The notes under the pieces were generated by a model that saw only the letters and a program-made list of their open reading frames with translations, did no database searches and was not told where the DNA came from. Shown piece after piece: positions 11,269 to 56,184 of a DNA stretch of 56,184 bases. Position numbers and translations under genes: made by a program. The first letter of the stretch is position 1; the number at the start of each line of letters is the position of its first letter. The stretch covers positions 1 through 56,184 of the forward strand of contig JAIBBI010000019.1 of assembly GCA_019694755.1 (NCBI GenBank), in the 5' to 3' direction. Source of the DNA: Gemmataceae bacterium (GTDB lineage: Bacteria > Planctomycetota > Planctomycetia > Gemmatales > Gemmataceae).

Positions 11269-11870
11269 CAGGGTGCGTACTGACTCACAAACGACCAGCG
11301 TTGCTCGGGCTTCCCCTCGCGCGCCGGGTTGTTCTTCACATATTGAATCCGGTCGTGGACCTCATCGTCATTGAACAGAAACACCTTGCGAAAGTCCTGA
11401 CCCCAGACCGAAGGCAGCCGGCCGTTCTTCGCCCGCTGGTCAGCAAACGGGTGCAAGCCCTTCTCCAGCAGTTTCCGCGTACCGGCCTGGCGCAGCAGAC
11501 GAACGACCTGCTCGATGTCGTAGTGATGCCGACCTACGACGAGATGCATGTGTTGCGGCAGGATCGCACACGCATGAATTCGGAACTGCGAGGTAGCAGT
11601 CTGCTCGGCAAAGCCTGATCCGATCGCGGCGGCCTGCGCGCCGTAGAGGACTACCTCCGGGTACTTGAGCGCCTTTTTCGCGGCCAGGCGCAGTGCTCGG
11701 TCGTGGGGCCGGCCGGCGACTGATCGGCGGGTGTCGGTGACGAGCGTGGCCTTGCCGAAGGGTCTGATGTTGTCTGCCCTCACCTCGGACGAGTTCGACC
11801 CGCGCGGGTCGTTGGGCAGCCAGAACCCGTAAGTGCTGAAGACGACGTGAAAAGCAATGACGCGCTTCAT
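11268..11870 (-). CDS. REP-associated tyrosine transposase (RAYT, IS200-like Y1 family)
   Basis: A 200-residue single-domain Y1 transposase. It has the HUH metal motif H107-M-H109 in L-P-Q-H-M-H-L-V-V and the candidate nucleophile Y177 in Q-Y-V-K-N-N-P-A-R, the typical RAYT C-terminal motif. The N-terminal F-S-T-Y-G-F-W-L-P-N-D-P-R-G is also typical. RAYTs act on REP hairpin DNA as single copies rather than as self-mobile insertion sequences. The REP-like palindrome touching its 3' end supports this call. It lies between the cupin and sugar isomerase-like genes, all in the same direction. All key residues are present, so it may be active. Confidence 0.88.
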   Translation of the reverse strand: MKRVIAFHVVFSTYGFWLPNDPRGSNSSEVRADNIRPFGKATLVTDTRRSVAGRPHDRALRLAAKKALKYPEVVLYGAQAAAIGSGFAEQTATSQFRIHACAILPQHMHLVVGRHHYDIEQVVRLLRQAGTRKLLEKGLHPFADQRAKNGRLPSVWGQDFRKVFLFNDDEVHDRIQYVKNNPAREGKPEQRWSFVSQYAP

Positions 11871-25069: not shown

Positions 25070-25150
25070 GTTCCGCTATCCACCCTCTTTTCCGACCTCT
25101 GATCTCCGACCCCTGACCTCTTTCCTGACACCCGACACCTGTCACCCGTC
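25070..25150. repeat. Pyrimidine-rich interspersed repeat, copy 1
   Basis: The spacer between actB and actC consists of degenerate C/T-rich units such as CTCCGACCCCTGACCTCTT and CCTGACACC. A similar stretch with the same leading TTCCGCTATCC and the same unit order stands upstream of mqnA at about 40766-40890. Confidence 0.6.
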
Positions 25151-28100
25151 ACCCCAGTTCCGGGTTGGGATTGCGAACGGCCGCCAGATACGTTGTCCGC
25201 GGCTTCGTGTTCAGTTCCGTCAGCAGGCCGTAGCTGCGGGGCAGGGCCTTCGCTTTGCTGACCGCGCTCTTCGGATCGTAGGCATTGCCGAACACGATCG
25301 CCTGGCTCGGGCAGGCGGCCTGGCACGCGGTCACGATGTCGCCCTCGGCGATGCCGCGCCGCTGGACCTTGGCCGTGATCTCAGCCTCGCGGATGCGCTG
25401 GACGCAGTAAGTACACTTCTCCATGACGCCGCGGACACGGACGCTCACGTCGGGGTTGCGCTGGAGTTTCAGGCTCTCGGTGGCGTAGTCGGTGAACTCG
25501 AGGAAGTTGAACCGCCGGACTTTATACGGGCAGTTGTTGGCACAGTAGCGCGTACCCACGCAGCGGTTGTAGGTCATCTCGTTCAGGCCGTCGGGGCTGT
25601 GCGAGGTCGCCTCGACGGGGCAGACCACTTCGCAGGGCGCGTTCTCGCAGTGCTGGCACATCACCGGCTGATGCACGGCCTGGGGGTTCGACTCGTCGCC
25701 GGTGAAGTAGCGGTCGATGCGCATCCACGCCATCTCCCGGCCGCGGGTGACGGAGTCTTTGCCGACGACGGGGATGCTGTTCTCGGCCTGACAGGCGATG
25801 ACGCAACTGCCGCACCCGTTACACGCGCCGAGGTCGACCGACATGCCCCACTGGTTCGGTCCGCCGACCTGCGGGTTCGTGTAAAGCTCGTCCATCCCTT
25901 CGACGTGCGGCAGGTGTGCACCGTGCCCTCCGGCCTGGTGCGGCGGGCAAGCCGGGTCCTTCTTGTAATCTTCGTGCGTGGCGAGGCGGACGAGGTCCCG
26001 GCCCTGCATGCTCCAGAGCGTCTGCGTGCAGGCGAGCGTGAACCGGACGCCGGTCGGCCGGATGTCGACGGTCTGCCCGGACCACGAATCTTCGGTCGGG
26101 CAGAGTTCGTTGGCGTTGACACCCACGCCGTCGGCGACTTTGCCAGTCTTCGCCCGGCCGTAGCCGAGGTGCAGCGTCACGGCATCGTCCGGGTGCCCGG
26201 GCAGGACATACAGCGGGGCTCGCAGCTTGCGTGAGCCGGCCGTCAATTCGACGAGTTCAGTGAGCAGTTCGCCGTGGTTGCCGCCGTGCGGGCCTTCACC
26301 CGGTGCGATGCCCAGCGTGCGGGCGGTCGCCGGGCTCACGATCGCGGCATTGTCCCAAGTGATCTTGGTGAGTGGCTTCGGCAATTCCTGCAGCCAGCCG
26401 TTGTTGGCGAACCGGCCGTCGCGGAGCACGGCGTCAGGCCGGACGATCAACTCCGGCCCGGCCGGCTTGGGCCCGGGTGCGGGCGCTTTCACTGACTGAG
26501 CGCGGACCGTGAGCGGTTCCCGGGCGGTGCCGGCCACCACGCCGTCGTGGACGGCCCGTCGCCAGAACGCCTCGAAACTCTCGGACACGTTCTTCGACTT
26601 GTGCCAGGCCCGCCAGTAGTCGCGGACAATTTCGCGCGTCCGCCACGACTTCCACTCGGACGGCACGCCGGGCAGTTGGGCCGGCTTGGTCGTCGCCGTG
26701 CTGAGGAACGCGGACAGAACTTCGTGGGCCGACTTGCCTTCGTACAGCGGCGCGATGAGCGGCTGAATGATGCTCGCGGTGCCGTCCGGCCCGACAGCGT
26801 CGCTCCAGCTTTCGAGGAAGTGCGCCTCGGGGATGTGCCAGTCGCACAGACAGCCGGTCTCGTCTTCGTAAAGCCCGAGGCGGATACGCAGGCGGACCTT
26901 GGCGAGCTTGCCCGCGAAGTCGAGGCCGGCCGGCGCGGTGTGAACCGGATTCACGCTCAGGATGAGCAGCGTGTCCACCTCGCCGCGGTCCATCGCCTGC
27001 GCGAGGTTGGTCAGGGTCGCGTCGCCGGCGGGTCGGGCGTCGACCGGGTCGATGGCGACTACTGACTTCCCGAAGTTGCCGAGCTTGTCGTTGATGGCGA
27101 TGGCGAGTGCATGCACGGCCTGCGATTGGTACGGCCCCGCGATCACGAGCGACCGGCCGGCGTTCTTCTTGAGGTCGGCGGCGACCGCGTCGATGAACTT
27201 CGACGCCTTCGGGTCGGCGACGTTGGCCGGGCCGGGCAGCACGCCGAGGCGGGCCGCGAGCGCGGCCACGAACTCGTCCATCCGGCCGGGCCGGAGCGGA
27301 AGCCGGTGGTCGGCCACCATGCCGGTGGGCGTCGGCATCGCTTCGACGGCATACAGCCGGTTCATGTTGCCCGATGGATTGCGACGGGTCGCGAACTCCC
27401 GGGCGTGGCGCAGGTGGTTCGGCCCCTCGGCCAGGAAGTTGGCGTCGAGCGACACGATCACATCAGCTTCGGCGAGGCGGTAAACGAGATCGACCGGCTT
27501 GCCGAGCGCGGCTTTCGCGCCCTCGTGGGCGAAGCCCGGCACGGTCGGCTCGTGGACGTACCACTTCGCCAGCGGCATCGCTTTCAACAAGTCCGCGATC
27601 TGGGCCGCCAGCGTCGGCGAATTGACCCCGCCGGTGAGCAGGGCGAAGCCCTTGCCCTTGTTCAACACCAGCCCGGCGAGTTCCTTGCGGAGTTGATCGA
27701 GCGCATCGTTCCAGCCCGTGACCCGGCTGAAGTGCGTCAGGGCCTTCGCACGGTCAGGATCATAAAGCCCGAGCACCGCGGCCTGCTCGATTGCGCCGGC
27801 CGCCCCGAGGCTGGCGGGGTGGGCGGGGTTGCCCTCGATCTTCGTTGGCCGGCCTTCGTGGCTCTCGACCATCAGCCCGACTGCGCCGCCCGGTTGCGGC
27901 ATGGCGGTGGCGTAATAGAGCGGCTTGCCCGGGATCGTCTTCTCGGGTGATTTGACGTAAGGGACGATCTTCTCGGGAGTCTGTCGGCCGCAGCCCGCCC
28001 CGGCCAGCGCGAGCGACGCGCCCATCAGGCCAAGAAAGGTTCGGCGGTCGAAGTCGGGCAGCCCCGCTCCGGGCGCGAACTCGCGCGGGTCCAATCGTGC

Positions 28101-31171: not shown

Positions 31172-31303
31172 CGCACGTCTCCCCCGTCGCTGCGGCGCGA
31201 CCTCCCCCGAGGTCGGGCCGGGACCATGCCCTGACCCGCTCCGGGTGTCAAGGGCATTTTCTTAGATATTACCAGCGCTGTGAAGACCGAGGGACGTGGA
31301 ACG

Positions 31304-31333
31304 ATTGCAGAATTCAGATTGCAGAATGCAGAA
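31304..31333. repeat. Degenerate ATTGCAGA/TTCAG tandem repeat
   Basis: About two copies of a 14-bp unit related to ATTGCAGATTTCAG stand in the gap upstream of the coiled-coil gene. A cleaner copy of the same family, in the opposite orientation, is at 54743-54780. The remainder of this 278-bp gap (31172-31449) holds a GC-rich stretch at 31355-31385 and no gene that I can support. Confidence 0.5.
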
Positions 31334-31449
31334 GTAAGAGTGGGAGGTTAGCCGCGACGCGCAGCGGAGCGCGGCGGCGAGCGGTGAACGTGAGGCCGTA
31401 TTCGCGCGACTACGGCTACGAAGTGCGCGAAGACGCCATCGGGATACCG

Positions 31450-40735: not shown

Positions 40736-40765
40736 GGCTGATGTTCTATGTCCGCTTCCCGCGTT

Positions 40766-40890
40766 CCGCTATCCGCTCTCCGCCAGACGAAGAACTCCAA
40801 TTGCCCTTGACACCTTCTTTTCCAGCCTCCGTCCTCCGTCCTCCGTCCTCTGACCTCCGACCTCTTCTCCTGACACCTGGTACTCGGCAC
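40766..40890. repeat. Pyrimidine-rich interspersed repeat, copy 2
   Basis: Upstream of mqnA stands TTCCGCTATCC, followed by tandem CCGTCCT units and CTGACCTCCGACCTCTTCT and CCTGACACC. The composition and order match the actB-actC spacer (25070-25150), although the units are degenerate and the spacing differs. Between 40736 and 40963 no gene is supported. Confidence 0.6.
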
Positions 40891-40963: not shown

Positions 40964-42913
40964 TTAGTTACCGCAGTCGTTGCCGCAGCTTAACAGGCCA
41001 GAGAGCCGCTGGTGGAGGTTGGCCTTCCAGCAGGTCACGCACGCCGGGGGCGGGCAGACGGGCTGGCAGACCGGCGTGCAGATCGGGATGTACCGGCAGG
41101 TCTGGTACTTCACGCAGTAGGCCTCCATGTGGCAGGTCGTTACCGGCACGCACCGCGTCATGCAAACCGGTTCCATCCGGCAGGTGGTGTACGGCCGGCA
41201 GTACCGCTGGTACTCCGTCACGTACCGCACCCGGCACTCACGACGGCAGGCCGTCCGCTGTTCGCAGACCATCCGGCAGGTCGTGTACGGGATCATCCGC
41301 GTGTGGCACTCCGGCACGCTGTAGCAGTGCCGGCGGGTCTCGTAGCGGACGTGGTGCTCGGGCACCATCCGGCAGGTGGTGTAAGGAATCTGGCGGACAT
41401 GCTGCTCCGGCACGGTGTAGCAGTGGCGTCGGGTTTCATAGCGGACGTGGTGCTCGGGCACCATCCGGCAAGTGGTGTAAGGAATCTGGCGGACGTGCTG
41501 TTCCGGCACGGTGTAGCAGTGGCGTCGGGTTTCATAGCGGACGTGGTGCTCGGGCACCATCCGGCAGGTCGTGTACGGGATCATCCGCGTGTGGCATTCC
41601 GGCACCGTGTAGCACCGACGCATCGGGATCATCTCGCAATGGTCCTGACGCACCATCCGGCAGGTCGTGTACGGCACCTGACGCACGTGCTGCTCGGGCA
41701 CCGAATAGCACTGCCGACGGGTTTCGTAACGGACGTGCTGCTCGGCGACCATCCGGCAGGTCGTGTACTGCTGCGGCACGTACTCCGTGCGGGCCACCAC
41801 CCGGCAGGTGTTGTAGGTCTGCGTGTGGCACTGCTCCCGGCAGACGTAGTGGCACTTCCGCACCATCCGCGTCTCGACCGTCGGCACCCAGGTGCTCCGG
41901 CATTCCCACCGGCCGGGGCACTGGACCTGCTCCTGCGTCACGGGGCCAGGGCAGTACCGCGAGGTGCAGGTGCACGGGTCGAACGTCCAGCAGCCGGGCT
42001 GACGGACGCAACGGGTGACCACCGGGCCGGGCACGAAGTGCCGCTCGGTGACATAGCTGCCCGAGCAGACCTGGACCGGCTCTTCCGACCAGACCGGCTC
42101 GAGGTGCGTGGTCTTGTAGGTCATCGTCCGCGGCTCGACGATCGTCTCGCAGCGGGTCACCGGCACGTAGCAGGTGTGGGTCTGGTATTCCGGCCGCATC
42201 GTGCAGTACGGAATCGCGACCTGATATTCCTGCACCATCGGCCGGAGCGTCGTGTAGCACTCCTGGCGGACATGCTGCTCGTAGACCGGGTGGAACGTGC
42301 TGTAGTAACGCGGCACCTGGTACTCCTGCACCATGGTCCGGTAGGTCATGTAGTTCACCGCCCGGACGTGCTGTTCATACACGGGGCGGCAGGTGGTGTA
42401 AGGGATGGCGACCTGGTATTCCTGGACCACGGGCCGGTAGGTGGTGTAGCAGACGTTGCGGACGTGCTGTTCATACACGGGGCGGCAGGTGGTGTAGGGG
42501 ATGGCGACCTGGTATTCCTGCACCATGGGCCGGTGAACGACGTACTGCTCGGCCCGCATGTGCTGTTCGTACACGGGCCGGGACACGGTGTAGGTGTAAG
42601 GAACGTCGTACTGCTCCACGACGGGCCGGGTGCACGGCACGACTTCTTCGCGCATGTGCTGTTCGTAGACCGGCCGCATGACGGTGTATGCTTCCTGCTG
42701 CATCACCGTGCGGTACACGGGGCGGTACGCCGTCGCCGTGTGCTCCTGCATCACGGGTTGATAGCTCACGCGATAGCTCACGGCGGGCGGGCAGATCTGC
42801 CCGCTGCTGAATGCCGTCGCTGAGTATCCGCAGGCACCGCAGTTCGTGGCAGACGCGAAGCCCGGCAGTGCGGCAAGCACGAGCAGCGCGCGTGTGAAAG
42901 TGGCCAGCCTCAT
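40964..42913 (-). CDS. Cys/Tyr/Arg-rich YTV-like repeat protein, probable cell-wall protein
   Basis: The 649-residue exported protein has a signal peptide (about 1-22) and is almost entirely built from variants of P-Y-T-T-C-R-M-V-P-E-H-H-V-R-Y-E. The N-terminal third uses Y-E-Q-H-V-R/Y-Q-V-A-I-P units. A Cys-rich insert (about 260-360) follows. The second half has 32-residue repeats, three of them nearly identical at DNA level (96-bp period, 41321-41600). The family resembles YTV-domain proteins known from Rhodopirellula, which are thought to be cross-linked wall proteins. High Cys and Tyr content fits that idea. A terminator follows. Confidence 0.8.
   Translation of the reverse strand: MRLATFTRALLVLAALPGFASATNCGACGYSATAFSSGQICPPAVSYRVSYQPVMQEHTATAYRPVYRTVMQQEAYTVMRPVYEQHMREEVVPCTRPVVEQYDVPYTYTVSRPVYEQHMRAEQYVVHRPMVQEYQVAIPYTTCRPVYEQHVRNVCYTTYRPVVQEYQVAIPYTTCRPVYEQHVRAVNYMTYRTMVQEYQVPRYYSTFHPVYEQHVRQECYTTLRPMVQEYQVAIPYCTMRPEYQTHTCYVPVTRCETIVEPRTMTYKTTHLEPVWSEEPVQVCSGSYVTERHFVPGPVVTRCVRQPGCWTFDPCTCTSRYCPGPVTQEQVQCPGRWECRSTWVPTVETRMVRKCHYVCREQCHTQTYNTCRVVARTEYVPQQYTTCRMVAEQHVRYETRRQCYSVPEQHVRQVPYTTCRMVRQDHCEMIPMRRCYTVPECHTRMIPYTTCRMVPEHHVRYETRRHCYTVPEQHVRQIPYTTCRMVPEHHVRYETRRHCYTVPEQHVRQIPYTTCRMVPEHHVRYETRRHCYSVPECHTRMIPYTTCRMVCEQRTACRRECRVRYVTEYQRYCRPYTTCRMEPVCMTRCVPVTTCHMEAYCVKYQTCRYIPICTPVCQPVCPPPACVTCWKANLHQRLSGLLSCGNDCGN
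41321..41608. repeat. 96-bp tandem repeats inside the YTV-like gene
   Basis: Copies begin at 41321, 41417 and 41513 with a strict 96-bp (32-codon) period and few mismatches. This points to recent duplication or gene conversion within the coding sequence. Confidence 0.8.
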
Positions 42914-53866: not shown

Positions 53867-54625
53867 TCATTGTACGGAGGCCGGGGACTCCTTGGGTGGC
53901 GACAGCATCGGGAAGATCTTCCGCCGGAGGAAGTCCGGGCTGTAGCACCCGAAGTGCCCGCCGTCGTTGCCGATCTTCTCCTCGTCCGGTGACCACCGGT
54001 GCATCCGGACCTTCGAGGCGGCCTCGTCGCGGGCGGTCACGAACCCGTACCGCCCGGCCGCCCGACTGGCGAACGGATCGTCGGGCGTGCCGAGGATGCG
54101 CACCAGCACGCCGAGCCACAGCCAGTCCTTCTCACTGACAAAACAATCAATGCCGTCGCGACAGGCCGCGAGCGCGGGCCGGACGTCGTAGTTCTCCGAC
54201 AGCGATGGCGAAAGCAGCACGATCCGCTCGATCGAGTTGGCCGGCAACCGCTCGGCCGCCCCCAGCACCACCGCGCTGCCCGCGCTGTGGGCTACGAGCG
54301 TGATCGGCGCGTCCGGGTGTTTCTCGCGGTGGGCGAGGATCAGGTCGGCCAGGTTGGCCGCCCGGTCGCGGATGTGCGGCACGTCGGTCTGGTCGGCCAT
54401 GTTGCGGAGGTAGCCGTGCGACCAGACGAAGGTCACGACCTCGAGCGAAAGCCCGTCGGCCGACGCCGTCTGCCGAAACGACCCGGAGCACGCGCGGAAG
54501 TCGCCCGCCCCGTCGGCCACGAACACCACGGGCCGATTCGAAGCCGGCAACCCCGGCAATGCCATCGGCGGCAAAGTCCGGCAAGCCGGCAGAAAGACCA
54601 ATAGCAGCAACCACCCACCCCGCAA
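53867..54625 (-). CDS. Alpha/beta-hydrolase lipoprotein
   Basis: The protein has a lipoprotein signal (M-R-G-G-W-L-L-L-L-V-F-L-P-A-C) and an alpha/beta hydrolase core with nucleophile elbow A-H-S-A-G-S-A. A late D (D-G-I-D or S-P-D-E-E) and H (G-G-H-F-G-C) complete a plausible triad. I choose TTG 54625 because GGAGG stands eight bases upstream and gives a compact signal peptide; an earlier TTG at 54682 is in frame. The substrate is unknown, possibly a lipid or ester. Confidence 0.75.
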   Translation of the reverse strand: MRGGWLLLLVFLPACRTLPPMALPGLPASNRPVVFVADGAGDFRACSGSFRQTASADGLSLEVVTFVWSHGYLRNMADQTDVPHIRDRAANLADLILAHREKHPDAPITLVAHSAGSAVVLGAAERLPANSIERIVLLSPSLSENYDVRPALAACRDGIDCFVSEKDWLWLGVLVRILGTPDDPFASRAAGRYGFVTARDEAASKVRMHRWSPDEEKIGNDGGHFGCYSPDFLRRKIFPMLSPPKESPASVQ

Positions 54626-54742
54626 GCGCGCAGCCTCCCCCAAAGGCTGGGCGACGGGCGGGCTATAGCCACAGGGGTCCAAAAACGCAAGAGAAGAACA
54701 AGCCCGATGGTCGCGACCCGATCTCTGACATCTTCATTCTTC

Positions 54743-54780
54743 AATCTGCAATCTGAAATCTGCAATCTGAAATCTGCAAT
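54743..54780. repeat. 14-bp tandem repeat
   Basis: AATCTGCAATCTGA occurs at 54743-54756 and 54757-54770, followed by ten more matching bases. A degenerate inverse copy stands at 31304-31333. Confidence 0.8.
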
Positions 54781-54788
54781 GGTTCTTC

Positions 54789-54883
54789 ACGCCGGAGGCG
54801 TCGAAGGTCAATAGCCCGGGGTAAGCGGTACTCCGCGCAACCCCGGGAACGCGACACGTCCCACTCCGACATCCCGGAGGGAT
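54789..54883. repeat. Composite multi-hairpin element
   Basis: Four hairpins follow one another: ACGCC-GGA-GGCGT (54789-54801), an outer stem CCCGGGG/CCCCGGG (54815-54821 with 54841-54847) enclosing GCGG-TACT-CCGC (54825-54836), and ATCCC-GGA-GGGAT (54871-54883). The first and last share the GGA loop and the 5-bp stem size. It adjoins the 14-bp tandem repeat. The rest of the 281-bp gap shows no gene. Confidence 0.65.
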
Positions 54884-54906
54884 CGAAGGGAACGACCCAC
54901 ACGCGC

Positions 54907-56184
54907 CTAAACCCCCTGCAAAAACCGCAACCGGAACTGCAAGAAATCCGTCGGTCCCACCACCCCATCGCCGTCGAAGTCAAATGCCGGGTTGTTCAGG
55001 CCCAGCCCGAGCCGGAAGGCGAGGAAGTCGACCGCGTCGACCCGGGCGTCGCCGTTCGCATCGCCGAAGAGGCGATGGAAGTTGGCAACGTAGTCCCCGC
55101 CGGCCAGGCCGTCGGCATCGCCGTCGAGCGACTCGATGCCCAGCACCTGATTGCTCAGCACCGTCAGAGAATACCGCCCATCGACGAGCGACCCGAACTG
55201 CGTCCCCGGCCCGGAAAACGTCAGCGTCACGGTCGTCGCAGTACCGGTCGTCACCGCGGCCGACAGCGCAACCGTCTCGCTCCCGCGCCGCACCACAAAC
55301 GCCCCGGCCGGGTCCCCCGCAAACGTCACCGGCTGATCGAACGTCACGGTCAAAGACCGCACCACCGACCGCTGCGCCAACCCGTCGGCCACTTTCATCG
55401 AGGTAATCGTCGGCGGCGGGGTGATGTACGCGAACATGTCGTCGAAGCCGTTGCTGTCGCGGAGGATCAAGTCGCTCGCGCTGGAGCGAAAGGCGATGAC
55501 GGAGCCGTTGCCGTTGATGACGGGGGTCGAGAAGTAAGTGTTGGCATTGCCGAACCGGGTCGGATCGTTGATCGACCGTGTCAGCAGCGTGACTGCGCCG
55601 GTGACGCGGTCGAACGAATAGACCTGATCGTACGTGCCGCTGTTGTCGTACGGCCCGGTCATGCCCGGCGCGAGATTGGTGGCGGACGAGAACCACGTGA
55701 TGATCCGGCCGTCGCCACTTATGGCGGGGTTGAGCGCGGAGTGGCTGCCGCCGACGAGCGACTGCCCCGCCGCGTGGCTTGCCAACGCGAAGCTATCGGC
55801 CAGGCGGTCGTACACCACCACATCCGCCGTCGTGCTGGTCGCGCCCGGGATGAGTTTGAACGCAAAGGCGACGAAGCCGATGTACCGGACGTCGTCGCTG
55901 ACGGTCGGCAACACGCCGCCGACCGCCAGCAGCGGGTCCGTATGCGACCGGCTGATGAGCGCATTCTCGCCCGTGAGTTTATCGTAGAGGAAGACGTCGC
56001 TGCCGCCGCCCGTATCCGTCACGCCTGCGACCACATCCGCCCCGGTGTGCGTATGCACGACGTATCGGCCGTCGTAGCCCAGTGTCGCGGCGGTCGATGA
56101 CCCGTTCGCGGAGACGGTGGGCTGCCCGGCCGCATGGGAGATGAGGAACTTGGTTCCGGTCGCGACGTCGTAACCATATCGAAA
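54907..56184 (-). CDS. Surface protein with paired dockerin/EF-hand loops, 3' part
   Basis: The frame is open to the end of the window, so the N-terminus is missing. The visible 425 residues begin with TolB/propeller-like repeats (V-S-D-D-V-R-Y-I-G-F-V, I-S-G-D-G-R-I-I-T-W, I-N-G-N-G-S-V-I-A-F). An Ig-like domain follows (S-L-T-V-T-F-D-Q-P-V). The C-terminus has two calcium loops, D-A-N-G-D-A-R-V-D-A-V-D and D-F-D-G-D-G-V-V-G-P-T-D, each followed by F-L-x-F-R, a planctomycete dockerin-like anchor. A secreted or cell-surface role is likely. Confidence 0.75.
   Translation of the reverse strand, partial: FRYGYDVATGTKFLISHAAGQPTVSANGSSTAATLGYDGRYVVHTHTGADVVAGVTDTGGGSDVFLYDKLTGENALISRSHTDPLLAVGGVLPTVSDDVRYIGFVAFAFKLIPGATSTTADVVVYDRLADSFALASHAAGQSLVGGSHSALNPAISGDGRIITWFSSATNLAPGMTGPYDNSGTYDQVYSFDRVTGAVTLLTRSINDPTRFGNANTYFSTPVINGNGSVIAFRSSASDLILRDSNGFDDMFAYITPPPTITSMKVADGLAQRSVVRSLTVTFDQPVTFAGDPAGAFVVRRGSETVALSAAVTTGTATTVTLTFSGPGTQFGSLVDGRYSLTVLSNQVLGIESLDGDADGLAGGDYVANFHRLFGDANGDARVDAVDFLAFRLGLGLNNPAFDFDGDGVVGPTDFLQFRLRFLQGV

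Follow-up and report, generated by a model that had tools for sequence, protein, structure and literature searches.

Most of the systems that resemble the repeat described here involve Y1 transposases. In REP, REPtron and REPIN arrangements, served by RAYTs (TnpA-REP), a hairpin carries a four-base tag at its 5' foot, canonically GT[AG]G, and the repeats occur as inverted pairs, as dispersed solo copies and on both sides of a Y1 transposase gene. TIRYTs (TIRtrons), as described in Di Nocera 2013 (PMC3733652), have inverted repeats around Y1 transposase genes that also occur dispersed; they belong mostly to subclass 2.1, whose transposases end in an HTH (PMC6006769). IS200/IS605 elements such as IS608 and ISDra2 have subterminal hairpins and guide-like tetranucleotides (for IS608, PMC8266576). 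The 2018 TnpA_Y1 classification also contains a subclass 1.2, with DH[IV]H, WQ and YIKNQKEHH-like motifs and a length of about 148 aa, for which no REP-like structures are listed and whose range is mainly cyanobacterial and Bacteroidetes (PMC6006769). Acido-Lenti-1 (RF01687) entered the literature in 2010 as a candidate RNA from Acidobacteria and Lentisphaerae (PMC2864571). The hairpin unit at 54786-54890 of the DNA examined here is very likely a solo, non-autonomous end copy of a single-strand-DNA mobile element family, once moved in trans by a Y1 transposase of the kind characterized below.

The window, meaning the whole 56,184-nt stretch that was analysed, is contig C5 of a 5.6-Mb genome assembly in 335 contigs. 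Judging by its dockerin-type and PEP-CTERM-like proteins, the organism may be planctomycete-like. Toward its end, a short tandem array and the hairpin unit lie between two minus-strand genes, 53867-54682 and 54907-56184. The latter, a host gene outside the element, has a dockerin-type repeat tail and is cut by the edge of the window, with its stop codon about 17 bp from the hairpin unit. The dockerin-like C-terminal tail (DGDGVVGPxDFLQFRLRFLQ; 54910-55071, minus strand) recurs at 113 other places in the genome, about 114 in all. The array (TCTGAAATCTGCAA; 54724-54780, 57 bp) is given by TRF as period 14 with 4.1 copies and a score of 79; periods 7, 14 and 21 all score, the underlying repeat being a degenerate 7-mer. 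Both array and hairpins, as reported in a first-pass annotation, are real, but the array start given there, 54743, clips the array.

The complete unit is about 105 bp long and reads, on the plus strand, HP1 - ATAG - HP2 - HP3. It is defined by alignment of the copies in its own genome, by a score of 129.8 bits with a covariance model built solely from those six copies (R1) and by a match to a structural descriptor; its borders are the points beyond which the own-genome copies cease to agree. HP1, the outermost hairpin (54789-54801), is ACGCC-GGA-GGCGT, with a 5-bp stem and a GGA loop. ATAG (54811-54814) forms the foot of HP2, in the position equivalent to the GTAG tag of REP sequences. HP2 as a whole (54815-54847) has an 8-bp outer stem, CCCGGGGT/ACCCCGGG (54815-54822/54840-54847), enclosing a hairpin with a 4-bp stem, GCGG/CCGC (54825-54828/54833-54836). 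HP3, the inner hairpin (54871-54883; ATCCC-GGA-GGGAT), again has a 5-bp stem and a GGA loop, and is followed by CGAAGGG to 54890; HP1 and HP3 are direct repeats 82 bp apart, with a TCGAAGG-type tail behind each. The four stem-loops originally counted come down to three hairpins, one of them nested, while the GGA-looped outer pair and the nesting in the middle stand as first seen. Folded as DNA, 54781-54900 has a z of -3.4 on the plus strand, none of 200 shuffles being equally stable, and of -2.7 on the minus strand. The descriptor (an HP1 hairpin, 3-14 nt, a foot ending in A[GA], and a perfect 8-bp HP2 stem starting CC) finds 54789-54847, with a background of three matches in ten window-sized first-order Markov sequences. 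Against Rfam, the window gave no match at gathering scores.

Six units are present in the genome by BLAST and covariance model, the other five being 83-94% identical to the window copy by BLAST: solo copies on contigs C5 (the window), C59, C70 and C215, and a gene-less inverted pair at C82:9436-9672. The window copy is solo rather than a REPIN-like inverted pair of the sort found on C82. HP1 is identical in all six, its core and the TCGAAGG tail being invariant among them, and varies in other genomes. In one member of the pair (C82a) the inner stem of HP2 carries a two-sided change, and the outer arms CCTGGGGT/ACCCCAGG pair perfectly; the outer HP2 stem is damaged on C70 and C215, two of the four solo copies, which makes the window's subfamily look old. 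A further repeat, TTAGCCGCGACGCGACCGCT..GGGGGAGCGGAGCGC, occurs whole or in part near the units on C70 and C59 (loci L003 and L004), on both sides. The pattern GGAGGNNTCGAAGG is enriched only in this genome, and elsewhere in the family is near the level of a reversed-pattern control.

BLAST of the unit against 58 related genomes gave nothing outside its own, because in the relatives the sequence changes and the structure stays. An exact-pattern scan of viral contigs gave no match, and one of genome contigs a single Rhizobium match, taken as chance. A covariance-model search, as suggested in the first-pass annotation, was run with R1. Besides the own genome, 19 others of the phylum proved to contain units (lowest E 4e-10), many of them in convergent pairs. 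Their sequences differ and their anatomy is constant: HP1, 3-14 nt, an NTAG foot, HP2 and HP3, in that order. HP1 in these relatives has a GAAGG/GGAGG-like loop region, and HP2 an 8-bp stem beginning CC around a variable insert that often folds as a nested hairpin. Among 178 units found with the descriptor, the foot is NTAG in 133 (GTAG in 46; ATAG, as in the window, in 45; TTAG in 39), and an HP3-like hairpin accompanies 152 of 177 units, compared with 25 of 177 after shuffling.

Are the stems kept through compensatory change, as expected of a structured repeat? Those of HP2 co-vary strongly across genomes: a perfect 8-bp stem is present in 55 of 62 R1 matches, formed by 22 different arms, while swapped arms give one in 0.5%. 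Since R1 itself rewards pairing, the stem test was repeated with the motif TAGCC alone. Beside a transposase gene, in the expected place and orientation, 48 of 92 TAGCC sites have a perfect 8-bp stem; none of 39 distant sites does, and the value for swapped arms is 0.3%. Neither finding named in the first-pass annotation as fatal to its reading, a lack of further copies or of co-varying stems, was obtained.

The non-autonomous element proposed in the first-pass annotation is supported by what the units enclose: in many related genomes, inverted copies of the three-hairpin unit stand around genes for IS200-like Y1 transposases, with R1 matches on both sides (for example at loci L137, L127, L128, L117 and L110) and a raw sequence order of HP1-HP2-HP3-gene-HP3'-HP2'-HP1'. 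Two sets of loci were scored with the structural descriptor, counting units within 650 bp: Y1_Tnp (PF01797) loci from 15 unit-bearing genomes, and loci from the window's own taxonomic family, fetched regardless of the presence of units. The descriptor was devised after the first flanked loci had been seen, and the own-family sample was fetched later. Units accompany 19 of 24 loci encoding a Y-x3-Q-x2-HH transposase in the first set and 18 of 22 in the second (37/46 combined), with a convergent pair at 23 of the 46; the corresponding figures are 0/6 for RAYT loci with an NP motif and 4/12 for other or degenerate loci. In 47 control loci (139 kb) the single descriptor match was the window copy. 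Of the Y-x3-Q-x2-HH loci without a unit by the strict descriptor (5/24 and 4/22), one, L116, is matched there by RF01687. The same inverted ends of three hairpins flank a transposase gene on a Bacteroidota plasmid (Persicobacter, L243); read from the sequence, their stem base is CG instead of CC. A Bernardetia plasmid (L244) also encodes such a transposase; upstream of tnpA at 1486 it carries, judged by eye, GTTGC-type palindromes in place of three-hairpin units.

The flanked proteins are classed as IS200/IS605 family transposases by NCBIfam (NF033573), carry Y-x3-Q-x2-HH and are mostly about 150-180 aa long. Their DHVH, WQ and YIxxQxxHH motifs and their length fit subclass 1.2, an assignment made by motif and not by phylogeny. 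The likeness extends to the DH[VI]H-like motif, the length of about 150 aa and the conserved C-terminus of that subclass, and to the one flanked example from Bacteroidota, a phylum named for it (PMC6006769); unlike the subclass as described, most of the sampled genes of this phylum have three-hairpin ends nearby. With REP systems the units share the hairpin with an AG-ending foot, most commonly GTAG, the inverted pairs, the dispersed solo copies and the Y1 gene between repeats, but each unit has three hairpins, its foot is NTAG rather than strictly GTAG, and the transposase is Y-x3-Q-x2-HH instead of Y-x3-NP. The TIRYT arrangement is similar, and the published TIR motif, GGGGWSAS (PMC3733652), to which the comparison of sequences was confined, fits GGGGTGAG of HP2 in both C82 copies (C82a and C82b), but not GGGGTAAG in the window or GGGGTGGA on C59; subclass 2.1 proteins, moreover, are Y-x3-NP with a C-terminal HTH and about 238 aa, unlike the Y-x3-Q-x2-HH proteins flanked here. 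Class 3 differs in having a CnGA foot with NHVH and YVxxEQ, in place of NTAG with DHVH and YIxxQxxHH. Members of the IS200/IS605 group share the enzyme superfamily, the subterminal hairpins and the guide-like tetranucleotides, whereas here the ends are mutually inverted, have three hairpins each and occur in many solo copies.

Should array and hairpins be regarded as one modular element, as was originally proposed? A single composite moving together would account for the array adjoining the unit on C5 and C215 at the same distance from the upstream stop codon, but these are the only such junctions: the unit stands without the array at three of five own-genome loci (C59, C70 and C82), and the array type is found at 16 other places where the unit is absent. 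Contigs C5 and C215 also share flanking sequence that continues into the 3' end of the dockerin-type gene, so that a single duplication or recombination accounts for the junction; among the 114 gene-tail matches, 25 were fetched as loci, and the unit was present only at these two. A composite is accordingly extremely unlikely, and the array is a separate, common repeat unrelated to the hairpin unit. A blastn search of plasmids gave a match to the 7-mer array alone, on a Nostoc plasmid. Similar degenerate period-7/14 arrays lie at 25091-25154, 31303-31339 and 40765-40864 of the window, and such arrays are dispersed genome-wide; the tandem arrays at 41268-41768 and 42216-42581, with a 96-bp period and a 48-bp sub-repeat, are probably coding. 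A second alternative makes the unit part of a canonical REP/REPIN system with an NP-motif RAYT as its enzyme, for example the product of ORF 11331-11666. This minus-strand ORF is Y1_Tnp-like and resembles NP-motif RAYTs (REP_Tyr_transpos, 47.3 bits; cut-off 80). The GTAG-like foot on a hairpin, the REPIN-like inverted pairs and the presence of RAYT-like genes in the genome are all in keeping with such a system; its expected partners, however, are bare of units, both at the NP-type loci counted above, as against the Y-x3-Q-x2-HH ones, and at ORF 11331-11666 itself (L013), where neither R1 nor the descriptor finds three-hairpin ends. This makes a canonical REP system very improbable, and of the RAYT-like target first suggested, the association with a Y1 transposase survives and the canonical RAYT does not.

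The remaining alternative is that the hairpins act as RNA, in an sRNA or 3'-UTR element on the reverse strand that is made as part of the upstream gene's transcript. In this genome each of the four solo copies follows an ORF at a distance of 12-51 nt, always in one orientation, such that the Acido-Lenti-1 strand would be co-transcribed, and RF01687, whose alignment falls on the reverse strand of HP2-foot-HP1, is curated as an sRNA. In RF01687 both stems, the linker GGCUA and the hairpin CCUUCGG are that reverse strand, although the annotated sRNA is without HP3 and the long nested HP2. RF01687 matches occur at 14 of 20 Y-x3-Q-x2-HH transposase loci (E up to 1), six of them above the gathering score (L117, L113, L108, L126, L131 and L010). 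At E 0.001 the family is reached in 99 of the 392 genomes sampled from the phylum, where two matches in opposite orientation, some 150 bp from each other, are frequent. Among 30 RF01687 loci fetched, about four adjoin such a transposase, and at several others the matches form an inverted pair without a gene. The window copy has no RF01687 match (gathering score 37 bits); other members of the family do match. MicroRNA and lncRNA matches in Rfam were below threshold, and reflect a hairpin or chance. Against an RNA function stand the inverted pairs of units, around transposase genes and gene-less, and the orientation of the relatives to neighbouring genes, which is mixed (by crude ORF-based gene calls). 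Further, NTAG-like feet and hairpins are the features recognised by REP-type Y1 transposases (PMC8266576). G-T pairs are no more numerous than A-C mismatches (19 vs 28 in HP2, 23 vs 31 in HP1); hairpins of DNA would be expected to show this balance, and no strand-specific RNA signature stands out clearly. Since DNA hairpins at transposon ends explain the covariation, the structured RNA that had been put forward is not needed, and we consider it unlikely.

Taking the unit as a transposon end, a complete element would consist of an end unit (HP1 - NTAG - HP2 - HP3), an HUH/Y1 gene of about 150 aa (IS200-like and subclass 1.2-like) and an inverted end unit; gene-less inverted pairs (C82:9436-9672) and solo units, the window copy among them, would be its derivatives. 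By analogy with TnpA-REP and IS608 (PMC8266576), the transposase may recognise single-stranded HP2 with its NTAG foot, possibly together with HP1 or HP3; it would cut beside the hairpins, rejoin the DNA elsewhere and so mobilise gene-less units in trans. No empty site or recent insertion of the unit was found. More broadly, we lean toward the idea that subclass 1.2 HUH transposases run a distinct single-strand system, with three-hairpin, NTAG-footed, inverted ends, lying between IS200 and REP/RAYT and seeding this phylum and Bacteroidota with solo and paired units, and that Acido-Lenti-1 represents those ends. The units are candidate cis-acting ends for a subclass of transposases said to lack them and a concrete substrate for biochemical tests, and they recast an Rfam small-RNA family as transposon-end DNA; in the open-access literature, to which the search was confined, no paper linking Acido-Lenti-1 to these transposases was found. 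Given how many of the sampled genomes carry RF01687 matches, annotation pipelines probably label mobile DNA as sRNA genes, and the strong compensatory covariation seen here probably reflects recognition of single-stranded DNA, not RNA.

What might have moved the window's own subfamily? Beside the Y1 genes of this genome, BLAST and a simple motif found no unit of that subfamily, and neither R1 nor the descriptor found a Y-x3-Q-x2-HH gene with such ends in the assembly. The genome has two transposase genes of this kind, on C178 and C251, and by the descriptor their ends belong to a second subfamily, with arms CCCAGCCC, CCCGGCCC and CCCCGCCC. With the genome's own genes carrying other ends, either a gene that serves the window's subfamily lies in an assembly gap or the subfamily has died out; considered together with the damaged HP2 stems of the solo copies, it is probably a relic. 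Elsewhere in the same genome, at C208:7307-7540, copies of the second end subfamily are clustered in both tandem and inverted arrangement, with RF01687 matches.
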